Shown piece by piece: positions 3,533 through 16,506 of a stretch of DNA of 20,062 nucleotides (its first letter is position 1; every line of letters begins with the position of its first letter). The notes beneath the pieces were generated by a model. The model did not search any database. It had not been told where the DNA came from and saw nothing but the letters and a program-made list of their open reading frames with translations. Source of the DNA: a virus; IMG/VR virus record IMGVR_UViG_3300044712_000217, positions 1-20,062 of that record; one strand, given 5' to 3'. A program made the position numbers and the translations under genes.

Positions 3533-3575
3533 AGTATTTAACTATTCCTTAATTTTACACCCTGTTCACTACTTA

Positions 3576-3592
3576 ATTCGGGGTAACCGAAT
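3576..3592 (-). other. Short hairpin in capsid leader
   Basis: ATTCGG (3576-3581) and CCGAAT (3587-3592) form a 6-bp stem with a 5-nt loop, about 45 nt upstream of the capsid start codon and outside the ribosome binding site. It may be a 5' stability element of the capsid mRNA. Confidence 0.35.
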
Positions 3593-3649
3593 GTCTGCTA
3601 CTAAGCCTTGTGTTTTAATTTATAAGCCCATCCTAGGCCTATTTTTGTT

Positions 3650-3684
3650 AGTATGTTGAAACCATTTCCACATACTGGTTTTTT
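3650..3684 (+). terminator. Strong hairpin with T-run between scaffold and capsid genes
   Basis: AGTATGT (3650-3656) pairs with ACATACT (3670-3676), and inside it GAAA (3658-3661) pairs with TTTC (3665-3668) around a 3-nt loop, separated by one mismatch: 11 bp in all. On the plus strand it is followed by GG and six T, then G and four T, a terminator signature facing against the genes. On the minus strand the same T-tract becomes an A-tract before the stem and no U-run follows, so sense transcripts from scaffold to capsid should pass. It may stop antisense transcription or act as a processing hairpin. Confidence 0.45.
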
Positions 3685-3717
3685 GTTTTACTTTAAGTAT
3701 TCAATACTACACGAATA

Positions 3718-4839
3718 TTAGAAATACTTTTTATATTCATCCCAGTTCGTTAAGATACTCATCATATCTCCCTTGCGTAACAACTTCTTAGCGTCATCAG
3801 CTTGAGAGTTAGTCTTGTATCCACTCATGGTCTTCTTCTGGACATTCTCTGCAGTTGCTTGCTTTTTCTTCTGGATAATCTTTTCAGTCTGCTTCTCTGC
3901 TACATTGTCGATTAGTTTACGTACTGCCATTGCGGCCTTACGGAATTCTTGTTCAACAACAGCGGTCGGAATCTCCTGATCGTCTGGAAAAGCTTCGAAT
4001 GCTTTCTGTGCTTTAGTCCACACGAGATCGTCCAAGGTTGCTTCCTTCTCTGGGTCCCCAAGTGTTCCCTCAAATCGGTACTTATCAAATACGCGATCAA
4101 CAAAACCTTGAGTACTTCTGATTTCAGCTTGTTCCATGCGAGCAAGGGTTTTTTCCTCTGTCTCTTTAAGTTTAGCTTCAATCTCTTGAGCCCGAGCTTC
4201 TGCAGCCTTCTTAGCCTCTTCAAGTTCCATTGCTCTACGTTCCGCTGGAGTAGCATCCTCGAAAGCTTGTCTCCTAGCAATTTCTGCTTGGATAAGTTTC
4301 TCGAATCCATCCTTACCTTCAACCGTTTCGATTAGAGCTTTTAATCCGCCCTTCTCGTATGCTTGGTTCAAAGTGTCGAAATGTTGAGCTTTTTCTTTTG
4401 TAGGCTTAAGCTCTTTAGCGAGTTGATCTCTTTCAACTTGCCATTTCCTAGCACCTGCGGCGAGTTCATAAGCTTTCTTGGTCTTCTCTTTATCAGAGAA
4501 ATCGATAGCAACTTTGCGTCGAACACCTTGATGGTCTGTAACAAATATCTCTTCGATATCTTTAGAACCTTGCTTACCTGGATCTTGTTTTCGAACGTCC
4601 CCACTCGAATTAGATCCTTTAACCTTTGTGGCTTCCGCTTCTTGGTCTGGATCTCGGATTGTGTCAATCGGATCTGTTAAATCCGCTTCCGGCTCCTGCC
4701 CTTGATTAGAATAACCGTCCTCTGTTGCCAGACTGGATGGGTCCATTCCCGCTTTTTCTGCTACGCCGCTTAAGTCTTCGCCCTTACTCATCGCGTCTAC
4801 AGCAGCTTGTGCCACTGGACTTAGTCCTGATACGTTCAT
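3718..4839 (-). CDS. Head scaffolding protein
   Basis: The protein has 373 residues and is strongly charged. Residues ~1-95 are acidic, Gly/Ser/Asp/Pro-rich and probably disordered. Residues ~105-245 are Lys/Glu/Ala-rich with heptad-like spacing, predicting long helices or coiled coil. The C-terminus is basic (KKLLRKGD, then KKYF), as in scaffolds that dock on the inner coat surface. It lies between portal and major capsid protein, the normal scaffold position. A near-consensus promoter lies upstream and AGAAAGG precedes the ATG. Assignment rests on composition plus synteny, since scaffold sequences diverge quickly; I see no internal protease domain. Confidence 0.8.
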   Translation of the reverse strand: MNVSGLSPVAQAAVDAMSKGEDLSGVAEKAGMDPSSLATEDGYSNQGQEPEADLTDPIDTIRDPDQEAEATKVKGSNSSGDVRKQDPGKQGSKDIEEIFVTDHQGVRRKVAIDFSDKEKTKKAYELAAGARKWQVERDQLAKELKPTKEKAQHFDTLNQAYEKGGLKALIETVEGKDGFEKLIQAEIARRQAFEDATPAERRAMELEEAKKAAEARAQEIEAKLKETEEKTLARMEQAEIRSTQGFVDRVFDKYRFEGTLGDPEKEATLDDLVWTKAQKAFEAFPDDQEIPTAVVEQEFRKAAMAVRKLIDNVAEKQTEKIIQKKKQATAENVQKKTMSGYKTNSQADDAKKLLRKGDMMSILTNWDEYKKYF

Positions 4840-4963
4840 ATGATGAACTACCTTTCTTTTACCGTCCTTTTATTTTAATAAAGGATAGGTATTTATTCCT
4901 GGCTCTGGTAGGAAGCCCGACTATGGGTATTCCACCTATGCCTATGGATGTTTATATATGTTG

Positions 4964-4992
4964 AATATACTCAATATGTTACAGGAAGTCAA
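4964..4992 (-). promoter_or_regulatory. Sigma70-type promoter for scaffold and capsid genes
   Basis: On the minus strand a -35 box TTGACT (4992-4987) is separated by exactly 17 bp from a -10 box TATATT (4969-4964), each one mismatch from consensus. Transcription would start near 4957, leaving a leader of about 118 nt before the scaffold ATG. The leader contains a stem-loop (TCCTTT/AAAGGA, about 4865-4885). It gives scaffold and capsid genes a dose separate from terminase and portal read-through. Confidence 0.75.
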
Positions 4993-5023
4993 GCACTATT
5001 TTTTTATAAAGGCTGAATTCTTA

Positions 5024-7018
5024 TTAAATAGTTTGGGGTCCTGTACCCTCTTGTAATGTCTGATCTTTTTGCGCTTCTTCTACTGGATTAGGTTCTCCGG
5101 GAGGGGTTGGTCCCGGAACTTGGCCTGTAGGGGTAGGTCCCGGTTCCTGTCCTGGAGGGGGAATCTGCCCTGGCTGCTGCCCAGTTTTCTCTGCCGCTGC
5201 TGCATTCACTCTTAACTGGATGTGCTGAAGGATAAGGTCCTGCTTCTCTTTAGGGAGGTTCTGGAACTCTTTAGTCATTCGGTAAGTTAAAGCTGCCGCA
5301 AGCATATTCTCATGATCCTCGAAAGGCTGAGGCTCAATAAGGATGTTAAAGGCAATCATACGCTCAATAATTTCTCTTTGGCGATCTTCAGCTAACTGCT
5401 GAATATCCATGATACCTTCCATATCCGCAAGTTTGAACATCTTAAGGATATACCTAGGAGGAAGTCCAGCCTTCTCAATAAAGGGAGCCATCTGCATAAT
5501 CTCTTGCTTCCTAGTTAAAGGATCAAGGGAGAAGCTTTGTCCGTACTCAGCTACAATGTCGTAGCCCCCATCGACATCTGCACCTTTAATATCGATACTC
5601 GATAACGCCCTTTCCTTACCAATAACTTGAATAGTTCTTTTAGTAGTCCAGTGACGAATAACTAGCTTGATGAATGTCCTGTAAAGCTGTTCTACAAACA
5701 TTGTGTATTTATTGAATAAGCGGTGACGAATCATGTTACCTTGGTTAGTAGCAAACTGCATACTGTTACCCGAGGTTTCTCTTTGTACCTGGCCCATCAT
5801 AGCGTCGTTAACACCCCAGATATCATCAATGCCTACACGCATCTGTGCGCGGAGTTCAGACATAGCTGGCATAGTTTGAGGAGGAGACATGTGAAATGCA
5901 CCAGAGTTTCCAGTTACTTTAATAATATCCCAAGGAGTGTTAGTGATAGAGCCGTCTGCAATTTCTGCTCCTTCAGGAAGAATAAGTCTAGCTACACCGT
6001 GAGCTTGAATGTTATCTAGCATCACAGTATCCAAACGATTAAGAGTATCCTGGACTGGAGCTACGTAATCAATTGCTGATTTACCCCAAACTTTTCCTGG
6101 AACGTCTACATCTGTGAAAGGGATTAAAGGAAGTTCTGCTAGTTCGAAGTTACCCTTAGTCTTGAATCTATGGGGGTTCGGTTTAACCTCTTCAATAGGA
6201 GTACCATCAGGGAGACATACAGCGTAGCGCCCTAGATAACCGTTAAGTGGTAAGCCTTTTTCCCAGTATTCAAAAAATTCTACAACTTCTTCTTGAGGGG
6301 CAGTGTTATCTAAAGCTGATCCATCGGAAGGAGTGTCTCCAGAACTCTTACGGAACTTTTGAAGCATATCTAATTTATCTGGATACTTAAACTTCGCCTC
6401 CTCTAAAGGAATAGAGAATTTAATCCAGCAGTATCTTACATCTTCCCAGTGGTTCGCATCTGGATCCAACCAAACATCCCAGTTAGAGACGACGGAGAAG
6501 GAAATATCACCTTCCGTAACGATATCCCCATTCTCATCCTCCTCCAAAGGCTCACCAAGTTCACTGTCCCAGATAAGTTTAAGAAAGCCCGTACCGTAAA
6601 GTAGGGTATTAAGACCTGTTAGGTCAGTGTACTCTTGAATTTTATACTTACGAAGTGCATACCTGCAAAGCTTATCTGCAGTTTCCGCTTTATATTTGTC
6701 CTCTACATCTGAAGTAGCTGGACGCATAAGGACAGATGGGGGGTTACTAGATAGTTGAGCGTGAATGAATCTAAGGTTCTTGAATGCGTAAGCAACTCCA
6801 ATGTCTGCCGAACTATTATCTACTGAATCGAATTGGTTCCGTGTACCATCCAGGGGGTTAGAGCCAATGTTAGTTACAAAGTTACTAGTCCTGTAAGCTG
6901 TATTCTCAGCCATTTGCCAGTTTTGCTCAAGATATCTACGCTGTCTTTTAGCATAGTCTAAACGCTTGAATAATTCTTTTTTAGCTTGGGCTGCATCCCA
7001 TATAATTACTCGTGCCAT
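5024..7018 (-). CDS. Portal protein
   Basis: The protein has 664 residues. Portals form the dodecameric ring at the unique head vertex through which DNA is packaged and to which the tail attaches. The N-terminal ~100 residues are rich in Arg/Gln/Asn and aromatic residues; residues ~150-230 hold the wing-like beta region with GTGFLKLIWD and a DVWLDPDA phrase typical of podovirus-type portals. The C-terminal ~60 residues are a Pro/Gly/Gln-rich tail with repeats such as PGPTP, probably disordered. It follows terminase large subunit and one small gene and precedes the scaffold. AAAGGA lies about 12 nt before the ATG, inside the end of the upstream gene. Size is within the range of P22-type and related portals. 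Confidence 0.88.
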   Translation of the reverse strand: MARVIIWDAAQAKKELFKRLDYAKRQRRYLEQNWQMAENTAYRTSNFVTNIGSNPLDGTRNQFDSVDNSSADIGVAYAFKNLRFIHAQLSSNPPSVLMRPATSDVEDKYKAETADKLCRYALRKYKIQEYTDLTGLNTLLYGTGFLKLIWDSELGEPLEEDENGDIVTEGDISFSVVSNWDVWLDPDANHWEDVRYCWIKFSIPLEEAKFKYPDKLDMLQKFRKSSGDTPSDGSALDNTAPQEEVVEFFEYWEKGLPLNGYLGRYAVCLPDGTPIEEVKPNPHRFKTKGNFELAELPLIPFTDVDVPGKVWGKSAIDYVAPVQDTLNRLDTVMLDNIQAHGVARLILPEGAEIADGSITNTPWDIIKVTGNSGAFHMSPPQTMPAMSELRAQMRVGIDDIWGVNDAMMGQVQRETSGNSMQFATNQGNMIRHRLFNKYTMFVEQLYRTFIKLVIRHWTTKRTIQVIGKERALSSIDIKGADVDGGYDIVAEYGQSFSLDPLTRKQEIMQMAPFIEKAGLPPRYILKMFKLADMEGIMDIQQLAEDRQREIIERMIAFNILIEPQPFEDHENMLAAALTYRMTKEFQNLPKEKQDLILQHIQLRVNAAAAEKTGQQPGQIPPPGQEPGPTPTGQVPGPTPPGEPNPVEEAQKDQTLQEGTGPQTI

Positions 7019-7024
7019 TTTATA

Positions 7025-7327
7025 TTATTCCTTTCGACCGTCGTTTTTATAAGAAGATGAGGTCTGATTTGCTAAAAATGTCTCAATATCCCTACTAAGC
7101 TCTTGACTAGCCTTTGTGGGGCTAGGTAGTTTGTCTAATAAAGACTTTATCTGGTTTAACTTTTTAAGGCAATAGGATTCTTTTCCTTGTCGGAACATGA
7201 TCATATGATCCTCGGCCTGCTCCCTTAAATCGGAAAGGGTAAGCTTGGGTCTGTAGTTATCCCGAGTAGGGACAGACTCTGTCTTTTTAATAATAATCTT
7301 AAGAGTTCCAGGCTTTATCTTATCCAT
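7025..7327 (-). CDS. Small protein between terminase and portal
   Basis: The protein has 100 residues, is basic and mainly predicted helical, with no membrane segment. The N-terminus is Lys-rich, and the middle (residues ~30-75) is charged with several Leu, suggesting two helices. Its AGGAAG ribosome site lies in the last codons of the terminase gene, and its stop codon is 6 bp before the portal start, so translation of the three genes is probably coupled. I recognise no family. Position suggests an accessory to packaging or head-completion, but the sequence does not prove it. Confidence 0.7.
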   Translation of the reverse strand: MDKIKPGTLKIIIKKTESVPTRDNYRPKLTLSDLREQAEDHMIMFRQGKESYCLKKLNQIKSLLDKLPSPTKASQELSRDIETFLANQTSSSYKNDGRKE

Positions 7328-7331
7328 TTTG

Positions 7332-8813
7332 TTATCTTCCTGTTAAAAGGTAGCCACGCCGGGCCCCACGTTTAACTCTAACTATACCATTCTTCTGAAT
7401 TGACATACCATTCTTCTGCATCTTCTCTTTCGCCCTACGCTTATCATCTGCCTCTACTAAGTAAGCATAAAAGTTTCTGTGACTTTGTTGCTTCTCGAAC
7501 TTAGGGAATAGGTCTACTGCGTATTGAGCTGAATCAATTAGGTGGAAGGAGGAGGAATTAACTATCTTATCCCCCTGGAATCCTTCAGCCCACCTACAAG
7601 TTGTAATCTCCTGGATAAAGTCTTCATTCCAGGCTGGGATATTGATTCGACTACCCATAGCTTGTTGCAAACCTTTAATAAGTTCGCCTTTTCTATGGGC
7701 CTTGTTATGTATTGTTATGTAGACAAACCCCATCTTGCTGGCCGTCTCTGTATAGAAGGGGGCCACATCGGAAACCCGCCTACAAATGTTATAGCCTTTC
7801 ACAAGGTTTTCGCAAGTAGTAACAATTTCCGTAGGTACATACACGTTTGTAATGTACTTGGATAGGATTAGGTGCCAGACTCCCGACTCTGGGTCCTCTC
7901 CCCACAAAGTTAAACCTAGTTTAGATTTAAGAGCAGGGTCTACTGACAGTAAGTGTCTCCACCCCTTGTGATAATGCTCGGGTAAAGGTCGGGACATCTT
8001 ATCGTAATCCCACGCATAGACCATTTCCTCACCAACCAGCCAGTCTCCCTCCAAAGAGTTTTGGCGCTGGGTATCGGAAAGGCCTGCGAACGAGGCGATA
8101 ATTTTCTTTTTATCTTCCTCATCATATATTGGGTTAAGGAGTGTATGAAGCTTGTACACTTTCCCGTAGGGCTCGTGAGTAGCGTCAACCATTCTCTTAA
8201 TTTTATCGTTAATAACTTTAGGGGTAAAGGTTGCTACGAAGTGACCCCTAGTATCCAGGATACGTTTATGCAATTCTTCTACTAATTCAGCGGTCCCGGG
8301 CATCTCGTCCAACCATACGTAGTGTGCTCCGTAAGATTGAGCATTCTTTCTAGCTTCATTCGGGTTATTATGCGAGATAAAGACTATTTTATTTCCGTTA
8401 GGTAGATACTCTACCGATTGGAGAACAATACCTGCAAAATTCTCTTTATAGGTACCTGGCTCTAGGTAAGCCTTAACCTTTTCCCACATAGTGTGGCGAA
8501 TCTGCTGAGTAGTTTGACCTAGGGCCAGGATGAGTAACTTTTGTTCTCCCCAATAGGTAGGTCTTTTCCACTTTGGGTGAGTTTCAGTTAGGATCCAAGC
8601 AACTTCTCTAGCTGCAGTTTGGGTTTTTCCAGATCTGTTACCACCCCTTAGGTAGCGAAACGTATGCCTATCCAAGTCATCAAAGAATTGCTGCTGAGTA
8701 GCATTAGGCCGAGAGCCTGGCCTGTTAGGGTCAAAGTCCTCAGTCTTCTCAATACGCTTAAGCCGGGCAACCGCTGCGGCTATAAGCTTATCATTTTCTG
8801 TGGGAGTACTCAT
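7332..8813 (-). CDS. terL: Terminase large subunit (packaging ATPase/nuclease)
   Basis: The protein has 493 residues. It translocates phage DNA into the prohead through the portal and cuts it to length. Walker A is GGNRSGKT at residues 57-64; Walker B is VWLDE at 166-170, with the catalytic Glu last; ATFTP at 194-198 fits the coupling motif. The C-terminal RNase H-like nuclease has candidate metal-binding acids Asp292 (SVDPA), Asp349 (VSDVA) and Asp427 (LIDSAQ). Both domains appear complete and the length is usual. There is no obvious Shine-Dalgarno site; a 9-bp inverted repeat ends 2 nt before the ATG (see hairpin entry). The gene lies one gene away from the terminase small subunit candidate. 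Confidence 0.92.
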   Translation of the reverse strand: MSTPTENDKLIAAAVARLKRIEKTEDFDPNRPGSRPNATQQQFFDDLDRHTFRYLRGGNRSGKTQTAAREVAWILTETHPKWKRPTYWGEQKLLILALGQTTQQIRHTMWEKVKAYLEPGTYKENFAGIVLQSVEYLPNGNKIVFISHNNPNEARKNAQSYGAHYVWLDEMPGTAELVEELHKRILDTRGHFVATFTPKVINDKIKRMVDATHEPYGKVYKLHTLLNPIYDEEDKKKIIASFAGLSDTQRQNSLEGDWLVGEEMVYAWDYDKMSRPLPEHYHKGWRHLLSVDPALKSKLGLTLWGEDPESGVWHLILSKYITNVYVPTEIVTTCENLVKGYNICRRVSDVAPFYTETASKMGFVYITIHNKAHRKGELIKGLQQAMGSRINIPAWNEDFIQEITTCRWAEGFQGDKIVNSSSFHLIDSAQYAVDLFPKFEKQQSHRNFYAYLVEADDKRRAKEKMQKNGMSIQKNGIVRVKRGARRGYLLTGR

Positions 8814-8815
8814 TC

Positions 8816-8854
8816 TAGTATAAATTATCCGGAAAAAGGGTTTATTTTATACTA
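8816..8854 (-). promoter_or_regulatory. Hairpin enclosing the terminase leader
   Basis: TAGTATAAA (8816-8824) and TTTATACTA (8846-8854) are perfect 9-bp inverted repeats 21 nt apart. On the mRNA the stem ends 2 nt before the terminase ATG, and the only Shine-Dalgarno-like bases (GGAT) lie in its loop. The fold would limit ribosome access. No T-run follows, so it is not a terminator. Confidence 0.5.
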
Positions 8855-8858
8855 AAGA

Positions 8859-9497
8859 TTAAGTGCCAGCTTCTACTCTAACGTCCATAACTTGAAGGGA
8901 GTCGCCTGCTCCAGTATCCGCTACAACTCGGCATTGAGATTTAATAGGGATAAGGGCTTGGTCACCAGAGACTGCATTGTTGATAGTTAAAGATACTACA
9001 CGTACAGCGGAAGCTGTAAGGGTACCTGTACCGTCACTAGTAATATCGGTGATAATACCATCGTTCTGGACTGCAGTAAGTTGGAAAGAATCTGCATCTA
9101 AAACTTTAACGTAATAGATTTTGCTTGAGTCTAGTCCTACGGGTAAAGTTCCTGTAGTGTAAAGGGCTACTGCTTGACCTGAGGTGAACCCGTGACCTAC
9201 GCTTGTAAAAATGTCGGTAGCTGAGTCAGGAGTAAGAGTCCTATTTGTGGAAGCTGAGATAGCGGAAGAGTCTTTAACGTTTCTCCAGATACCCGCTCCA
9301 GAGCTGTCCTGCAAACTAACGGTAACACCCGTAGCTGCTACGGACCGTCCAACAAGGACATCTACTCTAAGCAGATCTCGGCTATTCATAGCGATACCGA
9401 AAGAGGGTACAGAGATTACAGCGTCGGATTGACTAGCTGGAATAACCACGCCTCTAGCTGACATTTTACTTGCGCTTTGATTAATTTGTTGGGACAT
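8859..9497 (-). CDS. FCCH-type repeat protein, probable virion component
   Basis: The protein has 212 residues. Residues ~95-140 (TSVGHGFTSGQAV, then GTLPVGLDSSKIYYVKV and FQLTAVQNDG) match the phrase found in many phage proteins and labelled in databases as resembling the FCCH domain of ubiquitin-activating E1; here it is a small beta-rich module with no ubiquitin chemistry. The flanking segments (residues ~20-85 and ~150-212) are Val/Ser/Ala-rich and look beta-sandwich-like. No signal peptide. It starts within the end of the terminase small subunit candidate (17-bp overlap), so the two are translationally coupled. A place between two terminase genes is unusual for such a protein. Virion surface or decoration role is inferred from the module. 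Confidence 0.65.
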   Translation of the reverse strand: MSQQINQSASKMSARGVVIPASQSDAVISVPSFGIAMNSRDLLRVDVLVGRSVAATGVTVSLQDSSGAGIWRNVKDSSAISASTNRTLTPDSATDIFTSVGHGFTSGQAVALYTTGTLPVGLDSSKIYYVKVLDADSFQLTAVQNDGIITDITSDGTGTLTASAVRVVSLTINNAVSGDQALIPIKSQCRVVADTGAGDSLQVMDVRVEAGT

Positions 9498-9984
9498 CTT
9501 CTTTATCTTCCTTTTTTAAATTAGGGTCGTTTAAATACTTTACTCCTACCTTTTCCAGGTAAGCTTTAAGTTCATCTTTACTCATTTTATTAATAAAGTC
9601 ATCAGCAAACTTCTTCTGTTCCCATTTATTCGGCATTCTACCCGCAACCTCTACCATAAGTTTAGCCATATTAACACGGGCTGATGGATTAGCCTTAGGG
9701 TCTGAAAGGATCTCCTCGGCAGTATCTAGGGCTAAGTGGGCTAGGTATTCGACCCGCTGCCGGAACTCATCCTTGTTAAGAAACCATTCACGAAAACCCG
9801 GTAAGCCCCACCAAGCCTTTAACCGGGACTCCCCTGTAAGGGTCTGGGCTAGGGACAGGGTGATAGGTTGAGTACCCATATCCGCGTATAAGGCCCAGAA
9901 CGCCGCTTTAATGCGCCGCTGCTCGGGGGAAGGGAGGAATACCACCTGATCTAATAAATCGTTTAATTTGTTAATTGAGTGCAT
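9481..9984 (-). CDS. Terminase small subunit candidate
   Basis: The protein has 167 residues. Small terminase subunits bind the packaging site and load the large subunit. The N-terminal half is helical and includes AWWGLPGFREWF (residues ~57-68), a tryptophan-rich phrase of small terminase-like DNA-binding proteins; the middle (ALDTAEEILSDP, then SARVNMAKLMVEVAGRMP) looks like the helical oligomerisation core; the C-terminus is Lys/Glu/Asp-rich. Length and position, one gene before the large subunit, fit. It overlaps the next gene by 17 bp. I have no similarity search, so an unrelated DNA-binding regulator remains possible. Confidence 0.7.
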   Translation of the reverse strand: MHSINKLNDLLDQVVFLPSPEQRRIKAAFWALYADMGTQPITLSLAQTLTGESRLKAWWGLPGFREWFLNKDEFRQRVEYLAHLALDTAEEILSDPKANPSARVNMAKLMVEVAGRMPNKWEQKKFADDFINKMSKDELKAYLEKVGVKYLNDPNLKKEDKEDVPTN

Positions 9985-9985
9985 T

Positions 9986-10252
9986 TTATTTAATATAGTT
10001 CTTTAATGGTTTAACTGATAGGACCCAAGCTGAGCCTTCTGCCTTCTCTAAATTAATTAAACCTATCTGATTCAGGTAGATTAGGTAGTTCTTTAAACGT
10101 AAAGCTTTGACTTTTAAAGCTTTTGCGCAGGTACTGATATCAATCACTGCCTTATTCGAGTTCCATATAACACCCGGCAAGTCACTATTCAGTAAGGATA
10201 CTAGTACTTTATAAGGTAAAGCTTTATTGAATTCAATCATTATTTCAGTCAT
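9986..10252 (-). CDS. Small winged-helix-like DNA-binding protein
   Basis: The frame can be extended to a TTG at 10288, but that TTG is the -35 box of a promoter, so I choose the ATG at 10252, giving 88 residues; ATG at 10240 is an alternative. Residues ~38-75 (ISTCAKALKVKALRLKNYLIYLNQIGLI) have the helix-turn-helix spacing of a winged helix, followed by a strand-turn-strand wing ending KPLKNY. It is the first gene of the minus-strand arm, one base from the terminase small subunit candidate, and may be a regulator of the divergent centre or a packaging accessory. No clear ribosome binding site is seen; with the predicted start near 10253 the mRNA would be almost leaderless. Confidence 0.6.
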   Translation of the reverse strand: MTEIMIEFNKALPYKVLVSLLNSDLPGVIWNSNKAVIDISTCAKALKVKALRLKNYLIYLNQIGLINLEKAEGSAWVLSVKPLKNYIK

Positions 10253-10259
10253 ATAAGCC

Positions 10260-10288
10260 AGGATACATGAATGTCCTTGGGATGTCAA
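10260..10288 (-). promoter_or_regulatory. Promoter for the minus-strand packaging/head genes
   Basis: A perfect -35 box TTGACA (10288-10283, minus strand) is 17 bp from TATCCT (10265-10260), two mismatches from the -10 consensus. Transcription would start near 10253, right at the chosen ATG of the first minus-strand gene. Confidence 0.55.
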
Positions 10289-10329
10289 TAGGTAATTTAA
10301 CAGAAGATTAGTACCTTACAAAAAAGTTG

Positions 10330-10358
10330 TTGCATTTTGATTAAATTTATGATATAAA
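10330..10358 (+). promoter_or_regulatory. Extended -10 promoter firing into the non-coding centre
   Basis: TTGCAT (10330-10335), a 17-bp spacer, then TATAAA (10353-10358), with TG one base before the -10 (10350-10351), an extended -10 arrangement that makes up for the weak -35. The start would be near 10365. No gene follows for 800 bp, which points to an RNA product. Confidence 0.65.
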
Positions 10359-10364
10359 GTATAT

Positions 10365-10634
10365 ATCTTTTCTTTTCTTTGCCTAGCTAAGGCTTAAGCT
10401 ATAGCTAGGGGTTGGTTTTCTTTTAAGTGAAGTAGTAGTTATCAGGTAAGTGTACTTCAACGCACTGTGCTTACCTGGTTTTAGGTCAAGGTATAGTATA
10501 GTATTAATCTATAAGGCTTTTTCTTAGCTTGTTGCATAAGAGAAGAAGTAAAGCAATAACCAACCTAAGCTTAGCCTAGCTTAATGTATTACGGCGCAGA
10601 TTTTATTAAGGGGACTTTACCGTCTCTTTTTTTT
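10365..10634 (+). ncRNA. Candidate structured non-coding RNA, about 270 nt
   Basis: Between an extended -10 promoter and an intrinsic terminator lies a segment with no credible reading frame. Its ends pair over long range: GGTTGG (10410-10415) with CCAACC (10560-10565), AGCT (10403-10406) with AGCT (10568-10571), and TTAAGCT (10394-10400) with AGCTTAA (10578-10584). Inside are a stem CAGGTAAG/CTTACCTG (10443-10450 and 10470-10477), a weak stem TATAG/CTATA (10492-10496 and 10509-10513), and TTTTCTTA/TAAGAGAA (10519-10526 and 10537-10544). The 5' arm can instead fold on itself as a nearly perfect 28-nt palindrome (10382-10409), so two exclusive folds are possible. I recognise no known RNA family. 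Product and function are inference. Confidence 0.55.
10608..10634 (+). terminator. Intrinsic terminator of the non-coding unit
   Basis: AAGGGGAC (10608-10615) pairs with GTCTCTTT (10622-10629) including two G-T pairs, around a 6-nt loop, and runs into eight T (10627-10634). This is a classic Rho-independent terminator on the plus strand, with no gene upstream of it other than the candidate RNA. Confidence 0.75.
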
Positions 10635-10646
10635 ATGTTTAAGCGA

Positions 10647-10667
10647 GGGCAACTCCCTTGTTTGCCC
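10647..10667 (+). other. Hairpin after the terminator
   Basis: GGGCAA (10647-10652) and TTGCCC (10662-10667) form a 6-bp GC-rich stem with a 9-nt loop, in the non-coding centre. No T-run follows. Function unknown. Confidence 0.35.
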
Positions 10668-10700
10668 CCTAAGGATTTGACGTAAGTTCTTGACTTATAA

Positions 10701-10786
10701 GACCTCCCATTTTTTTTAGGTTCGTTCTGTCATTATTTTAATATATGACTTCACAGACTACCTAAACTGGGAATTTTTTTTAGGTT
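10701..10786 (+). repeat. Two copies of an oligo-T stem-loop element
   Basis: The 14-bp sequence ATTTTTTTTAGGTT occurs at 10709-10722 and 10773-10786, 64 bp apart. Each copy is preceded by its partner: ACCT at 10702-10705 for the first (4 bp plus a wobble) and ACCTAAA at 10760-10766 pairing with TTTAGGT (10779-10785) for the second. Between them is a weak dyad, TCTGT/ACAGA around CAT/ATG. Possible protein-binding sites or RNA elements. Confidence 0.5.
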
Positions 10787-11060
10787 AAATTCTCTTCCTC
10801 CCTCCTAATTTAAACCCACTTGTACCCTTCTTATTCCTCTTCCCTCGTGTGTGCGTAGCCTGTGTGGGGATGTGTGTGGGGGGGTGACTTTCCCTTTCCC
10901 TGTGTATACTTGACCGACCGGCCAACCTGTGTGTAACCCATTGTAGTGTGGATAACCCATTGATTTCGTGTAAGCTCTAAAATTCGATTTAATGCGTTGT
11001 CCCGATCAGGGGATACCTAGCCTATCCCTTGAATCGGGGTCGATTAGATCTAATATCTAT
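10787..11060. other. Candidate replication origin
   Basis: This non-coding stretch has, in order: a pyrimidine-rich tract (about 10789-10854), a G/T-rich tract with runs of four and seven G (about 10855-10885), a 19-bp tandem repeat containing a perfect DnaA-box match, a dyad with 14 bp of stem (CCCGAT plus AGGGGATA at 11001-11015, pairing with TATCCCTT at 11023-11030 and ATCGGG at 11033-11038), and TTAGATCTAA at 11044-11053. The next 100 bp are very AT-rich, as expected for an unwinding element. Its place between divergent arms fits. Origin function is inference from these parts together. Confidence 0.45.
10928..10965 (+). repeat. Tandem 19-bp repeat with DnaA-box match
   Basis: Two adjacent 19-bp units (10928-10946 and 10947-10965) share TGTG..TAACCCATTG, 14 of 19 positions identical. 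The second contains TGTGGATAA (10947-10955), the exact complement of the DnaA box TTATCCACA; the first has TGTGTGTAA, two mismatches away. DnaA or a phage initiator could bind here. Confidence 0.55.
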
Positions 11061-11113
11061 ATAAATATCCGATTGAGCGTAAAAAAATAATTCAAATAAA
11101 GCTAAAGTTTTCC

Positions 11114-11162
11114 AAAAAACAGCCGATAAATATAATATAAGCTGTAACCGTTCCAGCTTATA
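11114..11162 (+). promoter_or_regulatory. Early-type promoter overlapped by a 9-bp-arm palindrome
   Basis: A perfect -10 box TATAAT lies at 11131-11136, with a poor -35 at 17 bp (TTTTCC near 11109-11114) and AGCCGATAA just upstream (11121-11129). TATAAGCTG (11136-11144) and CAGCTTATA (11154-11162) are perfect 9-bp inverted repeats 9 bp apart, covering the -10 edge and predicted start: an operator-like layout for the small-gene block that begins at 11180. Confidence 0.5.
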
Positions 11163-11179
11163 AAAATAAAGGATCAAAT

Positions 11180-11383
11180 ATGAATAAGCAAATAACAATT
11201 TTAGTCGACACTTTACGGGTTGAAGGGTACGAAATTAAGTCAATCTATAATCTTGATGCTTTTGTTCATTTAACCTTATCTCACGGTAACACTGTGCTTA
11301 CAATTAAGGAGCCCAGTCTAGACGTGTTAGCGCAGATTAATGAATTAAGGCCTCAATATAACTTAATCTATCGAGTAGCCTAA
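11180..11383 (+). CDS. Small unknown protein, first gene of the plus-strand block
   Basis: The protein has 67 residues and is not membrane-spanning. It begins with a beta-like stretch (KQITILVDTL), continues with alternating hydrophobic residues (residues ~18-42) and ends in a helix (LDVLAQINELRP), suggesting a small alpha/beta fold. AAGGA lies 7-8 nt before the ATG. It directly follows the palindrome-covered promoter and would be among the first products of this arm. I recognise no family; small host-takeover or regulatory proteins commonly occupy such positions, but nothing in the sequence proves that. Confidence 0.7.
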   Translation: MNKQITILVDTLRVEGYEIKSIYNLDAFVHLTLSHGNTVLTIKEPSLDVLAQINELRPQYNLIYRVA

Positions 11384-11421
11384 CGTTTAATTAACTTTAA
11401 CCTTAACAGTGGAGTAAACTT

Positions 11422-11634
11422 ATGTACTATCTTAACCGCCTTAACCGTATAACGCTAGCAGTAGACGAGTCCGTCCTAGTCCATCTATTCAAGCATCAAT
11501 TGACAGCTCAATTGTATGCAGCGGAATTTTACCCTATTCAAGGATCTAATGTGTGGGAGAATAGATTAACAGGGGAATTGATTAGTATTATTAAGTGTGT
11601 TGACAATCCAAATACTTTAAACAATCAATACTAG
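11422..11634 (+). CDS. Small unknown protein with a decayed partial copy downstream
   Basis: The protein has 70 residues with no membrane segment or recognised motif. GGAG lies 9-10 nt before the ATG. The C-terminal part reads TGELISIIKC (residues ~50-59). Directly after its stop codon, in another frame, the DNA encodes GELVSIIKAINGDIK and a stop, clearly related to this segment. The gene therefore appears to have had a tandem relative that lost most of its length. Function unknown. Confidence 0.7.
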   Translation: MYYLNRLNRITLAVDESVLVHLFKHQLTAQLYAAEFYPIQGSNVWENRLTGELISIIKCVDNPNTLNNQY

Positions 11635-11681
11635 GTGAGTTAGTGTCTATTATTAAAGCTATTAACGGGGATATAAAATAA
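11634..11681 (+). pseudogene. Remnant of a tandem paralogue (15 codons)
   Basis: Read from GGT at 11634, the frame gives GELVSIIKAINGDIK and TAA at 11679-11681. Its first eight residues match GELISIIK of the gene just upstream except for Ile/Val, while codons differ at synonymous positions (for example GAG/GAA, TTA/TTG, AAA/AAG). That pattern indicates the descendant of a translated sequence, not a recent copy. It has no start codon of its own. A C-terminus reached by frameshifting is an alternative, but no slippery sequence is seen. Confidence 0.5.
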
Positions 11682-11856
11682 AATTAAAAGCTTGTATTCA
11701 AGCGTACCGGTTTTGCAAAGAATATTTTAATTTAATGTAAGTTTTGCTTAAGTATTTTTAAAATTAGCCGATAAGCAATGTATATTTAATGATTCATTGA
11801 GTATAGTAGATGAGATCCAGTGCAATAACGTATTTATAAATCATAAGGGGGCACAA
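11682..11856 (+). promoter_or_regulatory. Intergenic stretch with possible promoters
   Basis: No gene is seen in this AT-rich gap. TTGCAA (about 11714) with TGTAAG 17 bp further is a weak promoter candidate. AGCCGATAA recurs at 11766-11774, six bases before TATATT (11781-11786); the same 9-mer precedes the first promoter of this arm at 11121-11129. A small stem GCTTG/CAAGC occurs near 11690-11704. Support for any one site is weak. Confidence 0.3.
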
Positions 11857-12285
11857 ATGTATAATAAACAGTCAATTAGTCAATCACTGCCTGAATTCGT
11901 TATCCTATCAGCAGAGCGCGGTTCCAACAACCCTATGCAGAATAGCGTGTTTACAGATGAATTGGAATCAATCCTTAAGTCTAATGGGTACGCTTATAAA
12001 AAGGTTGAGGGGCGCTATAAAAATCAAAAAGAGGAATCTTTTGTGGTGATTTTAAATAGATCGGACAGTCTAACACAATTAATTCGATTAGCGAGCAAAT
12101 TTGACCAAGAATCAATTCTTCTCGTGAATAGCGATAGGAAGGCAGAATTAATCTATACAGCGGATCCATTGGATGGGTATGTTCTAGGTGGGACATTTCG
12201 CCTTGTAGATGGTGATTTAATTCAGCGTACTGACCTATCTTATACTTACGACCCGAATAGCGGGTATTATTATTCGGTATATTAA
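11857..12285 (+). CDS. Unknown soluble protein, 142 residues
   Basis: The frame extends upstream to a TTG at 11797, but AAGGGGG lies 7 nt before the ATG at 11857, which is the likely start. Residues ~15-30 are Ser/Glu/Asn-rich; residues ~50-90 alternate charged and hydrophobic residues (FVVILNRSD, TQLIRLASKFDQESILLVN) and suggest an alpha/beta core; the C-terminus is Tyr-rich (YTYDPNSGYYYSVY). It looks like a small globular phage protein, with some likeness to short DUF-type phage proteins carrying an SILLVN strand, but I cannot name a family. Preceded by a 222-bp gap, it may have its own promoter. Confidence 0.7.
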   Translation: MYNKQSISQSLPEFVILSAERGSNNPMQNSVFTDELESILKSNGYAYKKVEGRYKNQKEESFVVILNRSDSLTQLIRLASKFDQESILLVNSDRKAELIYTADPLDGYVLGGTFRLVDGDLIQRTDLSYTYDPNSGYYYSVY

Positions 12286-12317
12286 TATATTCAATAACCT
12301 ATAAAGGAGTTACTTTT

Positions 12318-12551
12318 ATGCAGACAATAAATACGTATAAAGACTTATGTGACAAATTAAAAAAAGGATCGTTTGAAGTCCGAATTCATTTAGGTAACGG
12401 TATACACGTATATAAAAATATCTACAGTAAAAAAGAGGTGTACGATCTATCTCAAGAATGTACAATCAAATTTAAATCAACTAAACAATTTAAAGCCTAT
12501 TGGGATAAGTATCTGAATAAAAATACAGTTGAATTTCTATATTTTAATTAA
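12318..12551 (+). CDS. Small basic unknown protein
   Basis: The protein has 77 residues and is Lys- and Tyr-rich, with a predicted helix at the start (TYKDLCDKLKKG), a beta stretch (FEVRIHLGNGIHVYKNI) and a final Lys-rich helix. AAAGGAG lies 8 nt before the ATG. It belongs to a block of closely spaced small genes. No family recognised. Confidence 0.7.
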   Translation: MQTINTYKDLCDKLKKGSFEVRIHLGNGIHVYKNIYSKKEVYDLSQECTIKFKSTKQFKAYWDKYLNKNTVEFLYFN

Positions 12552-12575
12552 TTAACAACAATAGGAGTATTATAT

Positions 12576-12824
12576 ATGAATTTATATAAAATATGCACTT
12601 TAGATGTTTGGGGAAATGAAGTAGATGGGTACGACATTAATGATTATTTTACATATAAAACTAATTTTAATATAGAAGAATTAGATAATTTTAATGAGTT
12701 TTGTGAAGAACATTTAATTGGTGATCCTAATCAATATGAATTAAATGACTATGCTAATGGTTTTATGGAAATTGTACACAAAGAAACAGGAAAACCAATA
12801 TTACATTTTTATGAGGAACAATAA
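12576..12824 (+). CDS. Small acidic unknown protein, AT-rich gene
   Basis: The protein has 82 residues, strongly acidic and rich in Asn, Asp, Glu and Tyr. The gene is clearly more AT-rich than the structural genes, using AAT, GAA and TTA codons almost exclusively. AGGAGT precedes the ATG. The composition resembles DNA-mimic or host-inhibitor proteins of phages, but this is only a likeness in charge. The next gene starts one base after its stop codon. Confidence 0.7.
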   Translation: MNLYKICTLDVWGNEVDGYDINDYFTYKTNFNIEELDNFNEFCEEHLIGDPNQYELNDYANGFMEIVHKETGKPILHFYEEQ

Positions 12825-12825
12825 C

Positions 12826-13155
12826 ATGCAATTCTCTTTAGATTTAAGTCCTGTGCATCGACAGGAAAATGTGTATGATGCAGAAATGATTTATACTAAT
12901 AGCGAAGAATATTCCCGCGACGAATATGCCGCTATGGAAAAGGAGATACAAAGAACAATATACGGAAAAGGCTTTGAGATATACGCATGGAATGATTCTA
13001 GCGGTTATAACTATTGGAATAATATAATGCGGGAATCTAATTACATACAATTAACAGTAGAAATACTAGACCAGACAATTTTAGATATGGAAGAATTAAA
13101 TCAGAAATTAAACAACAGATGGAATGAATTAAATAATAAATATGGGAGAAATTAA
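12826..13155 (+). CDS. Unknown acidic protein, 109 residues
   Basis: The start at 12826 has GAGGAACA about 8 nt upstream, inside the end of the previous gene; the frame is open further upstream but that part lies within the neighbour. Residues ~15-60 are Tyr/Glu/Asp-rich; the C-terminal ~40 residues (DQTILDMEELNQKLNNRWNELNNK) form a clear amphipathic helix, likely coiled coil. Very AT-rich codon use, shared with the preceding gene, sets the pair apart from neighbours and suggests a separate origin. The next gene's ATG immediately follows its stop codon. Confidence 0.7.
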   Translation: MQFSLDLSPVHRQENVYDAEMIYTNSEEYSRDEYAAMEKEIQRTIYGKGFEIYAWNDSSGYNYWNNIMRESNYIQLTVEILDQTILDMEELNQKLNNRWNELNNKYGRN

Positions 13156-13290
13156 ATGCAATTAACTAACGATCAAGTCTTAACAATTGTAGGCTCGGGG
13201 ATGGACTTTATTCTAGCCTCACTAGGTATGGTTAGTATCCTACTAGTCGTCGGCGTTGTTCTAGTAGCTATGGAGATGATTCGAGATTAA
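13156..13290 (+). CDS. Small membrane protein, 44 residues
   Basis: The ATG directly follows the previous stop codon, with GGGAGA 8 nt upstream. The protein reads MQLTNDQVLTIVGSGMDFIL, then one hydrophobic stretch (residues ~17-38, rich in Leu/Val/Gly) and a short MEMIRD end. It is a single-span membrane protein with a polar N-terminus. Its size is small for a holin but possible for a pinholin or an exclusion or signalling peptide. Function unknown. Confidence 0.65.
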   Translation: MQLTNDQVLTIVGSGMDFILASLGMVSILLVVGVVLVAMEMIRD

Positions 13291-13317
13291 TTAATATAAC
13301 TTATAAGGGGAATTTAT

Positions 13318-13542
13318 ATGAACAAATATTTACCTAATCATGAATTGTATGAAATGTATGATGAAATGTTAGATTCTGTGTATGATCCTGTTAAAATTGG
13401 GGCTTATGAATATGAAGTGTCTACTGCTTTAAGAAAAGTAGATCCAATTGCTTACGAATTGGGATTTGATGAATGGTTAGATTCACAGATACAAGATGAA
13501 GTGTTTATTGAAGACTCGAATGGTTCCGTATATTTAAAATAA
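13318..13542 (+). CDS. Small acidic unknown protein
   Basis: The protein has 74 residues, rich in Asp, Glu and Tyr, with predicted helices at residues ~8-20 and ~30-55. AAGGGGAAT precedes the ATG, 27 bp after the preceding small membrane gene. AT-rich codon use. The strong negative charge is a feature shared with several of its neighbours. No family recognised. Confidence 0.7.
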   Translation: MNKYLPNHELYEMYDEMLDSVYDPVKIGAYEYEVSTALRKVDPIAYELGFDEWLDSQIQDEVFIEDSNGSVYLK

Positions 13543-13554
13543 AGGAGATTTAAT

Positions 13555-13749
13555 ATGCTTGTATTTGATTTTATATCTTATGCAGTCAGAACTTACGGGA
13601 ATGATTGGAGAAAACGACCGGACAGAGGATTGACAGGAAATACTAGTCTTAATAAAAGAAAAGTAGATAAGTATGGCAGATCCATGCAGTCAGTAAAGGA
13701 TTCATACGAAAAGAATAAACAAATTATTAATAAGGATCTTAAAAAATGA
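13555..13749 (+). CDS. Small basic unknown protein
   Basis: The protein has 64 residues and is Lys/Arg/Asn-rich after a hydrophobic start (MLVFDFISYAV). AAAGGAG lies 8 nt before the ATG. Its last codons overlap the next gene's ATG by 4 bp (ATGA), so the two are probably translated together. The basic body suggests nucleic-acid or membrane-surface contact, without proof. Confidence 0.7.
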   Translation: MLVFDFISYAVRTYGNDWRKRPDRGLTGNTSLNKRKVDKYGRSMQSVKDSYEKNKQIINKDLKK

Positions 13750-13934
13750 ATGAAAACAATGTAATCAGTATGATTAAACGGGAAGCGCGCGTCTCTTATG
13801 AATTATCTTTGCAGAATCAGGCTAAGATAAAACGTATTCAAGAATCGCTTGAAAAGATAAATGATTTGATGATGCAGCTTAAATCGGGAGCTTTTGTAAA
13901 GCCTAAAGATATTGATTCCCAAGTAGAACTTTAA
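13746..13934 (+). CDS. Small coiled-coil unknown protein
   Basis: The protein has 62 residues. Residues ~8-47 form a long predicted helix (ARVSYELSLQ, then KIKRIQESLEKINDLMMQL) with heptad-like hydrophobic spacing, so a small dimeric coiled coil is likely. Its start overlaps the previous stop as ATGA. A 14-bp palindrome follows its stop codon. Function unknown. Confidence 0.65.
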   Translation: MNENNVISMIKREARVSYELSLQNQAKIKRIQESLEKINDLMMQLKSGAFVKPKDIDSQVEL

Positions 13935-13937
13935 TTC

Positions 13938-13951
13938 GTTTGTATACAAAC
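13938..13951. promoter_or_regulatory. Perfect 14-bp palindrome between small genes
   Basis: GTTTGTATACAAAC is a perfect palindrome just after one stop codon and 19 bp before the next ATG. It lacks a loop, so a DNA operator for a dimeric regulator is more likely than an RNA hairpin; followed by an A-run, not a T-run. Confidence 0.4.
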
Positions 13952-13970
13952 AAAAAGGAGTATTATTTTT

Positions 13971-14123
13971 ATGATTAAGTATTTGATCTATCCGCTATTC
14001 GCTATCTGTGTGGGTATTATTTTAGTACCTATTCTTATGTTCCTATCTGCTTTCGGGGATATCTTTTTTCGCGTTGACCTAGAAAAGTTGTATGAAGCTA
14101 ACGAATTACTTAAGGATAAATAA
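13971..14123 (+). CDS. Small membrane protein, 50 residues
   Basis: ATG at 13971 with AAAGGAG about 10 nt upstream. After MIKYLIYP comes a hydrophobic stretch through residue ~28 (rich in Ile/Leu/Phe/Val), then a charged tail VDLEKLYEANELLKDK that forms a short helix. A single-span membrane protein with cytoplasmic or periplasmic tail; orientation not clear. Stop codon is 2 bp before the next small membrane gene. A holin or host-interaction role is possible but unproven. Confidence 0.65.
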   Translation: MIKYLIYPLFAICVGIILVPILMFLSAFGDIFFRVDLEKLYEANELLKDK

Positions 14124-14125
14124 AT

Positions 14126-14290
14126 ATGAGTGATAAAAGATTTTTAGGGACATTGCTACTTATTATCCTGAGCTTGATCTTTCTAGCAGCGCTAAAGCAT
14201 CAAGCTTTAATGATCAAAGCTTTAGATCCGGAGGATACAACCTGTCCCACTAAACTAGATGAATGGCCAGTTAGACCTGCAACATGTTAA
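14126..14290 (+). CDS. Small N-terminally anchored protein, 54 residues
   Basis: ATG at 14126. MSDKRF precedes a hydrophobic segment (residues ~7-24, GTLLLIILSLIFLAAL), then a short polar domain with Cys40 and Cys54 and two Pro-Thr or Pro-Ala turns. The positive-then-hydrophobic start predicts export of the C-terminal part; the two Cys could form a disulphide there. There is no lipobox. No strong Shine-Dalgarno is seen before the ATG (TAAGGATAAATA), so translation may be coupled to the preceding gene. It could be a small periplasmic accessory of lysis or superinfection exclusion; this is speculation. Confidence 0.6.
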   Translation: MSDKRFLGTLLLIILSLIFLAALKHQALMIKALDPEDTTCPTKLDEWPVRPATC

Positions 14291-14315
14291 CAATATGAAA
14301 TATAAGGGAAGTAAT

Positions 14316-14981
14316 ATGCTAAAATATAAATTAACAAATAATAAAAATGCGCAAGGTTTTTATCAGATTCAAGCTTTACGGGATATTCCTAAGTTTTACG
14401 TAAAAGCTGGAGATAGGGGGGGATTTATTGAACAGGAAAGCAATCTAAGCCATAATGGCGATGCTTGGGTTTTTGATAATGCTGTGGTTTATGGGGATGC
14501 TAGGGTTTATGGGGATGCTAAGGTTTTTGATAATGCTGTGGTTTATGGGGATGCTAGGGTTTATGGGGATGCTAAGGTTTTTGATAATGCTGTGGTTTAT
14601 GGGGAGGCTTGGGTTTATGGGGATGCTAAGGTTTTTGATAATGCTGTGGTTTATGGTGATGCTAGGGTTTGTGGTAATGCTGGGATTTATGGGGAGGCTT
14701 GGGTTTATGATAATGCTGTGGTTTATGGGGATGCTAGGGTTTATGGGGATGCTAAGGTTTGTGGGGATGCTGTAATTGATTCTAGTTCTGATATTATTTA
14801 TATTCAAATGAAACCTTACAATATTACATTCACGCCACAGAACATTATTATAGGTTGTCAAAATAAAACATATAAAGAATGGATGAAAGTTAAGCATAAA
14901 GATACTGAATTAGATTTAAAAACATTTAATAAATACAAGAAAATTCTTCAATTCTTTAACTTAGAAGGAAAAACAAAATGA
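14316..14981 (+). CDS. Hexapeptide-repeat beta-helix protein
   Basis: The protein has 221 residues with start at ATG 14316, where AAGGGAAG lies 6-7 nt upstream; the longer frame to 14259 lacks such a site and overlaps its neighbour. After ~47 residues (with GDRGGFIE) come 18 consecutive six-residue units of the type GDA[RK]VY or DNAVVY (residues 48-155, DNA 14457-14780), the signature of a left-handed beta-helix as in YdcK-like and polymer-forming proteins. A C-terminal mixed domain follows. The 18-bp DNA units are nearly identical, so the copy number should vary by slippage or recombination. No acyltransferase catalytic residue is visible; a binding or structural role is more likely. The small gene after it overlaps by 4 bp. 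Confidence 0.75.
   Translation: MLKYKLTNNKNAQGFYQIQALRDIPKFYVKAGDRGGFIEQESNLSHNGDAWVFDNAVVYGDARVYGDAKVFDNAVVYGDARVYGDAKVFDNAVVYGEAWVYGDAKVFDNAVVYGDARVCGNAGIYGEAWVYDNAVVYGDARVYGDAKVCGDAVIDSSSDIIYIQMKPYNITFTPQNIIIGCQNKTYKEWMKVKHKDTELDLKTFNKYKKILQFFNLEGKTK
14457..14780 (+). repeat. 18 tandem 18-bp coding repeats
   Basis: Eighteen 18-bp units, mostly GGGGATGCTAGGGTTTAT or close variants, arranged in a higher-order 54-bp pattern (GDARVY, GDAKVF, DNAVVY). The identity between copies is much higher than protein function requires, indicating recent expansion or gene conversion. Because the unit length is a multiple of three without stops, all overlapping frames stay open. Confidence 0.9.
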
Positions 14982-15747: not shown

Positions 15748-16506
15748 ATGATGTTAAGATTAGTAATGTTGTCCATGACTTTAATGGCTCTAATCGGGTC
15801 CAGTCTTTATGGAAAAGCCAAGTCCGTAACTGTTAATCTAGACTCTGCAGTTATTATTTCGGGACCTATTTTTCCTGAGAGTATGAAGAATCGGATTAAA
15901 GAACTTATCGATCTGCAGAAGAACCCAGAAGTGCAGTCAGTTGATATTGTTCTGAATAGTCCGGGGGGTGAAGTCTATTCCACCCTTATGTTCATCTCAG
16001 TAATGGAACAGATTAAAGCTTCAGGTAAAGAGGTTCGGTGCGTTGTTCTTAACGGGGCTGCTAGTGCTGCTTTCCAGATCCTTTCTCACTGTTCTCAGCG
16101 TGTCAGCATGGAGCATTCATTCCTTCTTTGGCACCCAGTTAGAATTGGCCTTGGCTTTGGCGCAAGTCTTACACCTACAGAAGCAGTAAGTCTAGCTAAC
16201 CACCTTGTATACCTTGAAGACATTCTTATTAAGGACTTAAGACAGACTCTTAAAGTATCTGATGAAGACTTCTGGAAGCATTACACCTTGGAAACTTTAC
16301 ATACTGGAGCCAGCCTTCACGAGCTAGATAAATCTTTTCTTGACATTGTTGGATTCGTTACTAACTTAAAGGAAGTAAGAGAGAAAGCTGAGGAGCAGGA
16401 GAAGAAGGACGCTAGCGTGGGTGGTATCTTTGGAATGAGTATCAGTCCGGAAGACTTTATCTTTGACTACTCTACTCCTATCTATATTCCTGATCTTATT
16501 CAGTAA
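15748..16506 (+). CDS. Exported ClpP/SppA-fold serine protease
   Basis: The protein has 252 residues. After a hydrophobic start MMLRLVMLSMTLMALIGSSLYGKA, which reads as a signal peptide or anchor, residues ~27-205 have the crotonase-like fold of ClpP/SppA peptidases: the substrate loop NSPGGE (70-75), a nucleophile site GAASAAF with Ser106, and LLWHPV with His129, in the same order and spacing as ClpP (Ser, then His about 25 residues on). The acidic partner may be Asp199. The C-terminal ~45 residues are unlike ClpP. It lies 2 bp after the amidase stop codon and before an exported lytic transglycosylase, which points to cell-envelope work. A head-maturation protease is an alternative, but the export signal and operon argue against it. 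Confidence 0.75.
   Translation: MMLRLVMLSMTLMALIGSSLYGKAKSVTVNLDSAVIISGPIFPESMKNRIKELIDLQKNPEVQSVDIVLNSPGGEVYSTLMFISVMEQIKASGKEVRCVVLNGAASAAFQILSHCSQRVSMEHSFLLWHPVRIGLGFGASLTPTEAVSLANHLVYLEDILIKDLRQTLKVSDEDFWKHYTLETLHTGASLHELDKSFLDIVGFVTNLKEVREKAEEQEKKDASVGGIFGMSISPEDFIFDYSTPIYIPDLIQ

Follow-up and report, generated by a model that had tools for sequence, protein, structure and literature searches.

A putative folded leader RNA at a divergent promoter pair between the two arms of a phage genome

The intergenic segment 10330-10634 of the phage DNA analysed here probably codes for a folded non-coding RNA, a reading taken from the sequence for which the evidence now comes mostly from relatives of the phage. 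We tentatively interpret the segment, with slightly less than even confidence, as the folded 5' domain of a rightward transcript, which would act in cis and in this phage would be attenuated at 10634. The basis that was computed supports this interpretation: the promoter recurs in position among relatives, the RNA has structure potential, sister lineages show covariation, and the segment has no coding capacity; transcription, cis action and a protecting or attenuating role of the RNA are what we infer from it. "Window" denotes the whole stretch of 20,062 nt, positions 1 to 20,062 of the IMG/VR record IMGVR_UViG_3300044712_000217. Its features are listed in Table 1.

Table 1. Features of the window, and sites of the downstream element in related contigs
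Feature	Position	Strand	Basis and remarks
Portal gene	5024-7018		Structural arm (leftward)
Large terminase gene	7332-8813		Structural arm (leftward)
Gene X, first structural-arm gene, predicted winged-helix protein	9986-10243	-	Start set from relatives; longest ORF reaches 10288
Leftward promoter P_L, TTGACA-17-TATCCT	10260-10288	-	Score 12.1, p=0.03; counterpart in relatives
Rightward promoter P_R, TTGCAT (10330-10335), 17-nt spacer, TATAAA (10353-10358), extended -10 TG (10350-10351)	10330-10358	+	Sequence; positioned as the near-consensus promoters of relatives
Predicted structured untranslated RNA, ~270 nt	10365-10634	+	No ORF >33 aa, fold z, helix probabilities
Predicted 5' palindrome hairpin, 9 bp	10384-10407	+	Base-pair probabilities, ~0.62
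Predicted domain with internal hairpins, closing helix 10409-10417/10558-10566	10409-10566	+	Mean pair probability 0.91
Weak intrinsic terminator or attenuator, stem 10608-10629 plus T run	10608-10634	+	8 pairs, 3 G-C, dG -7.3
CCCACTTGTACC, possible remnant of the relatives' element	10815-10826	+	At the expected place, region ~10755-10826
Second rightward promoter-like site, TTTCCA-16-TATAAT	11109-11136	+	Upstream of first right-arm ORF; score 11.5, p=0.04
First right-arm ORF with ribosome-binding site, 67 aa	11180-11383	+	Sequence
Gene with tandem repeats	14259-14981	+	NAVVYGDARVYGDAKVF-type units
ClpP-like protease domain	15748-16506	+	Right arm; flanked by amidase and lytic transglycosylase
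Element sites in relatives	L094 2726, L098 1710, L099 495, L110 2743, L132 792, L133 3430, L139 2084, L173 116, others	-	

Phage family and genetic context

The segment sits inside a 0.9-kb gap that lacks credible genes and separates a leftward structural arm from a rightward arm. The longest ORF overlapping 10300-10660 has 33 aa, which bears out the earlier note's statement that the segment contains no credible reading frame. The untranslated stretch headed by the RNA extends over ~0.8-1 kb before the right-arm genes. A 167-aa gene of the structural arm may, by inference, encode the small terminase, and no tRNA genes were found in the window. AGCT words are 3.6 times denser in the segment than in the whole window; 14 of 1980 overlapping 270-nt intervals were equally rich.

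The same virus is represented by one other contig (21.9 kb), whose intergenic region is identical. Over positions 3284-14647 of the window the near-identical pair differs by 13 substitutions and one gap, all located in a repeat-rich gene at 14.5-14.6 kb. Scans with single proteins returned only the near-identical genome or no match. Against phage records, tblastn with portal and terminase aligned no more than part of the query, at 20-26% identity, and the major capsid protein had no match. The family was opened by alignments that included distant terminases: alignment-based terminase and portal searches led to phages ~33-49% identical in these proteins. The largest contigs of the family are 57-61 kb long, and several have two divergent arms and long non-coding gaps. 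The contigs of the relatives L136, L137, L138 and L139 carry assignments to Candidatus Thiomargarita nelsonii, Saprospiraceae, Oligoflexales and a Nanoarchaeia bin, which suggests very diverse hosts or mis-binned contigs.

Between lineages the RNA has almost no sequence similarity. The segment had no blastn match in phage records, a gapped pattern of 25 fixed bases detected no further copy of the window RNA in viral contigs (the sole homologue found is the identical one), and comparison of the RNA with the relatives by nhmmer and blastn-short gave only 12-16-nt matches with E>=2.2. Paper searches covered leader RNAs and structured motifs of phages, HK022 put, packaging RNAs and divergent early promoters; among the titles and abstracts listed, none described the family or the RNA.

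Divergent promoters and predicted folding

In 19 family members for which the available sequence was long enough, a divergent pair of sigma-70-type promoters is located at the edge of the structural arm. The two promoters stand back to back, with 9-138 nt (42 nt in the window) between their -35 boxes. P_R scored better than 100 shuffles (p<=0.05) in 18 of the 19 members and P_L in 16 (exceptions L132, L135 and L219), both promoters doing so in 15. The P_R of L110 and L139 is a full consensus promoter with extended -10 (score 18.0). The P_R was mostly picked as the best-scoring site of the locus, which inflates the significance of the p values; they are optimistic for this reason, and the recurring position is the stronger point. 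P_R candidates of L118/L119, L214 and L138 (outside the region) were left out, and L121 is the near-identical genome. No P_R was scored in L133, which is therefore outside the promoter and fold tests; L090 and L099 were included in the promoter test and are outside the fold test.

The single member whose P_R did not surpass the shuffles was the window, which has the weakest P_R of all. Of 100 shuffles of the DNA around it, 40% attained its score of 9.7 (p=0.40), and the site was absent from the list produced by a consensus promoter scan of the region. Thus, the extended -10 motif described in the earlier note is present, but its strength taken alone is near chance.

Gene X, adjacent to P_L, was recognisable by eye in 8 of 9 aligned rows including that of the window, with identities of 19-25%; for the rows that were kept the range is 19-27%. 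L098 was the unaligned row, and the structure model was made without L098 and L099; L143, L147, L149, L173, L187, L189 and L219 were outside the comparison. The AlphaFold model (pLDDT 83) has the order of elements of a winged helix. Foldseek matched it weakly to winged helices of CRP type and of CodY, with no match reaching E 0.001, and searches of Pfam and PHROG yielded no convincing family. Given its recurrence in relatives and the winged-helix prediction, gene X is a likely candidate for a regulator of the P_L/P_R pair.

Folding of the segment (MFE -73.8, z -1.96) was equalled by 7 of 200 shuffles. When 280 nt were tested, the antisense strand of the window (z -2.14) folded at least as well as the sense strand (-1.82). 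Taken alone, the window segment is barely above chance, and the case is strengthened by comparison with relatives. In the predicted structure the core of the closing helix, GGUUGG/CCAACC, has a pair probability of 0.99, and the outer pairing of 10394-10401 with 10577-10584 one of ~0.13; the long-range closing pairing proposed earlier thus stands as a prediction for the helix that closes the domain, but is improbable in its outer part. A perfect 8-bp pairing, CAGGTAAG/CTTACCTG (10443-10450/10470-10477), is possible, yet its probability is 0.0. The palindrome hairpin, which had been proposed as an alternative to the closing pairing, is itself predicted, but the MFE structure contains it together with the closing helix, and a switch between two folds is only weakly supported by the model. 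Comparison with the Rfam 15 covariance models gave no match above the gathering threshold for the window and 13 relative loci, in agreement with the earlier statement that no known family is recognised. At E<=5 the sole Rfam match in 10280-11180 was an unrelated snoRNA model, below threshold.

Across the family the first 280 nt past P_R had negative z values against dinucleotide shuffles in all 17 members tested (mean -2.22). The mean z of the following 280 nt was -0.60 (16 members; p=0.004 for the difference). Sense z was below antisense z in 13 of 17 members (p=0.017), the family mean for antisense being -1.51. With close relatives merged into 14 groups, the p values were 0.0001 for negative z, 0.013 for first versus next 280 nt and 0.025 for sense versus antisense. 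The antisense strand, too, differed between the first and the next 280 nt, though less clearly (p=0.04), since the pairing of two arms is reflected on either strand.

Covariation could be assessed in two groups of sister lineages. L132 and L135 are 66% identical in the RNA region, and their consensus fold of 59 pairs contains 11 compensatory double changes, 4 one-sided changes and 1 broken pair. Its energy was -77.5, compared with -17.9 (sd 3.9) for 200 column shuffles (z -15.4); the antisense values were -47.0 against -19.2 +/- 4.3 (z -6.5), with 13 of 64 pairs compensatory. A hairpin with tandem G.A pairs (two internal loops), located ~175-300 nt from the -35 box, is common to L130, L133/L134, L187, L132 and L135. 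Four of its 11 pairs are compensatory, and its covariation of 0.382 (0.176 for shuffles) was attained by none of 500 shuffles; the count of further pair types was unremarkable (236 of 500 shuffles). None of 200 shuffles had a consensus energy as low as that of L133/L187 on either strand (z -4.9 for sense, -3.7 for antisense), and in the three-row alignment of L130, L133 and L187 the strands were alike (sense z -3.4, antisense -3.8). The L132/L135 and L130/L133/L187 lineages therefore very probably hold real RNA structure. With a covariance model of the tandem-GA hairpin only the training lineages scored well among 60 sources, and the hairpin is absent from the window. Among the matches listed from a pattern scan of viral contigs, the hairpin was accompanied by promoter and fold only in known lineages and in one contig with the L130 sequence. 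For the window RNA, whose sole homologue found is identical, the case is one of position and folding only.

Termination, right-arm genes and a conserved downstream element

The earlier note described a clean intrinsic terminator at the end of the segment. A site is present there, but it is weak, with 3 G-C pairs, and about one such site is expected by chance: 2 terminator-like sites were found in 9900-11300, compared with 1.1 expected from shuffles. A terminator within 550 nt of the P_R -35 box was detected in 4 of 19 members, at 300 nt in the window, 346 in L187 (dG -21.4), 467 in L189 (-7.3) and 523 in L147 (-17.4). None was detected over this distance in the other 15, four of which have less than 550 nt of sequence, or within 900 nt in L110 and L139, the members with perfect promoters. 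In another scan, which covered 17 regions without L187, L189 and L147, sites beyond that of the window were found only in L107, where no P_R was scored, and in L137, where the distance to the -35 box is 810 nt.

Eleven members were scored for right-arm ORFs, and in six of them (window, L110, L116, L130, L139 and L187) the first ORF with a ribosome-binding site begins 780-1063 nt past the -35 box. In L189 an ORF of 99 aa with a site resembling a ribosome-binding site occurs at 220 nt and another ORF at 983, and in 4 of the 11 no right-arm ORF was found within the sequence examined. The window and L116 each have a promoter above chance ahead of the first right-arm ORF (p=0.04 in both cases); in L110, L130, L139 and L187 the preceding 260 nt contained none (p=0.62-0.93), and in these members the RNA could therefore be the leader of that ORF. 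In L110 and L139, where a perfect P_R is combined with no terminator found in 900 nt and no second promoter, the RNA probably forms a long untranslated leader. The window has both a terminator and a second promoter, and its product may be mostly a short RNA. The independent transcription unit suggested by the earlier note is thus favoured in the window by these two signals, but is weakened as a general feature of the family, with terminators detected in 4 of 19 members.

An element of ~60 nt (CCC-GTGTGG..AAATTC..CCCACTTgCC) was found in relatives 266-686 nt downstream of the -35 box. An HMM of the element, built from 18 sequences, locates it on the strand of the transcript in 12 of the 19 promoter members, of which 9 contributed to the training set. 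Outside the training set the HMM detected it at E<=0.001 in the contigs L210, L201, L161, L220 and L229. The window gave no match at E<=1, its copy being too degenerate. The element was also considered as an RNA hairpin; by eye, L110, L137 and L139 do not retain the pairing between its two boxes, and for this reason it is read as a DNA site. It could be an origin, a cos-like site or a protein-binding site. G runs are commoner after than before the element (p=0.008), and after it the comparison of G with C runs gave p=0.08. No GC-skew step was found at the element (p=0.58).

Proposed role and comparison with known systems

By the interpretation we prefer, the P_L/P_R pair of a podovirus-like phage would form the boundary between its structural arm and its replication and lysis arm. 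Transcription by the host RNA polymerase would start at P_R, and the first ~0.3 kb of the transcript would be strongly folded, untranslated RNA, protecting the 5' end of its own transcript in cis and modulating whether polymerase crosses the other 0.5-0.7 kb, also untranslated, to reach the right-arm genes. In the window phage the weak terminator at 10634 would stop part of the transcripts, giving a ~270-nt RNA, and the second promoter at 11109 could serve the right-arm genes.

The stretch from P_R to the terminator might instead be a gene of ~270 nt for a free, trans-acting small RNA, which early in infection would bind a protein or RNA of the host or the phage. Besides the terminator and the separate promoter of the window, the terminators of L187, L147 and L189, likewise no more than 550 nt from the -35 box, are consistent with this, as are the tandem-GA hairpins of two sister lineages, such hairpins often being protein-binding sites. 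We nevertheless regard a free RNA as rather unlikely in view of the 15 members without a detected terminator in 550 nt (4 of them with shorter sequence) and of L110 and L139, where neither a terminator in 900 nt nor a second promoter before the genes was found. Alternatively, P_R could read toward the element as an origin, and the folded RNA would help to form or process an R-loop primer. Such a replication transcript would agree with the position of the element, which lies downstream of P_R and on the strand of the transcript in 12 of 19 members (9 being training members), and with its occurrence in 5 contigs outside training, with the more frequent G runs past it, and with the DNA polymerase gene of the near-identical genome, which matches phage records annotated as DNA polymerase I. 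However, the weak G versus C difference, the lack of a GC-skew step, the degenerate copy in the window and the fact that the element may equally be a cos or protein-binding site make this explanation unlikely.

It is also quite unlikely, but has to be weighed, that the window phage makes no functional RNA here and that the promoter- and terminator-like matches arose by chance in A+T-rich intergenic DNA. The p value of P_R (0.40), the fold z of -1.96, the one terminator-like site expected by chance and the equally good folding of the antisense strand would all fit; the position of the segment in the family pattern, the P_L 42 nt away (p=0.03) and the family-wide fold signal argue against it. 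Of the regulatory or packaging RNA envisaged by the earlier note, a structured untranslated RNA made from an inter-arm promoter is supported by the relatives, which keep promoter position and structure potential, but the packaging part was not borne out. The segment is close to that end of the structural arm where the terminase lies; however, there is no Rfam match, the phage has a large-terminase gene, and structure and sequence turn over among relatives, so that a packaging RNA like phi29 pRNA is highly improbable.

The phi29 pRNA is a small structured phage RNA; the window RNA differs from it in having no covariance-model match at the gathering score. At ColE1-type origins the RNA II transcript helps in forming or processing an R-loop primer, a G-rich stretch of the RNA pairing with the template at the origin. 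The phage region resembles this system in its promoter, structured RNA, conserved downstream DNA element and polymerase I-type gene, the origin being only a candidate and the G-run signal weak. In HK022-type put antitermination, polymerase reads through terminators with no phage protein involved. Passages of PMC9378689 describe the putL and putR sites of HK022 as folded RNAs at or near a divergent early phage promoter that act in cis on polymerase; they are ~70 nt long, have two stem-loops and are mutually similar in sequence. The RNA considered here is likewise folded and located at a divergent promoter, with cis action a proposal; unlike put it is ~280 nt long and varies in sequence and shape between lineages, and instead of two stem-loops in ~70 nt the window fold has a ~160-nt closed multi-hairpin domain plus a 5' hairpin. 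GOLLD and ROOL are presented in parts of PMC12286853 as structured phage RNAs without known function; the ROOL example has 659 nt, and many GOLLD RNAs exceed 800 nt and are often near tRNA islands. The window RNA differs from them by its length of ~270 nt and by the lack of an Rfam match and of a tRNA gene in the window.

It is possible, if doubtful, that the family carries an undescribed class of phage leader RNAs, in which a strong divergent promoter and a ~280-nt folded RNA are kept at a fixed place, and sequence and hairpin layout are replaced between lineages. For structured RNAs of uncultured phages, sequence conservation is the usual route to discovery. RNAs that keep position, promoter and folding without sequence are missed by Rfam-type searches for this reason. 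If such a class exists, selection would act as if only foldedness at this place, or the binding of a fast-changing host factor, mattered, and the RNA would be part of a conserved control region comprising the winged-helix gene X, P_L/P_R, the folded RNA and the DNA element. If the leader is real, it would define the control region of a phage family met only in metagenome-derived and genome-bin contigs, and the L132, L135, L130 and L187 types would offer concrete constructs for studying cis antitermination, RNA stability and origin function.
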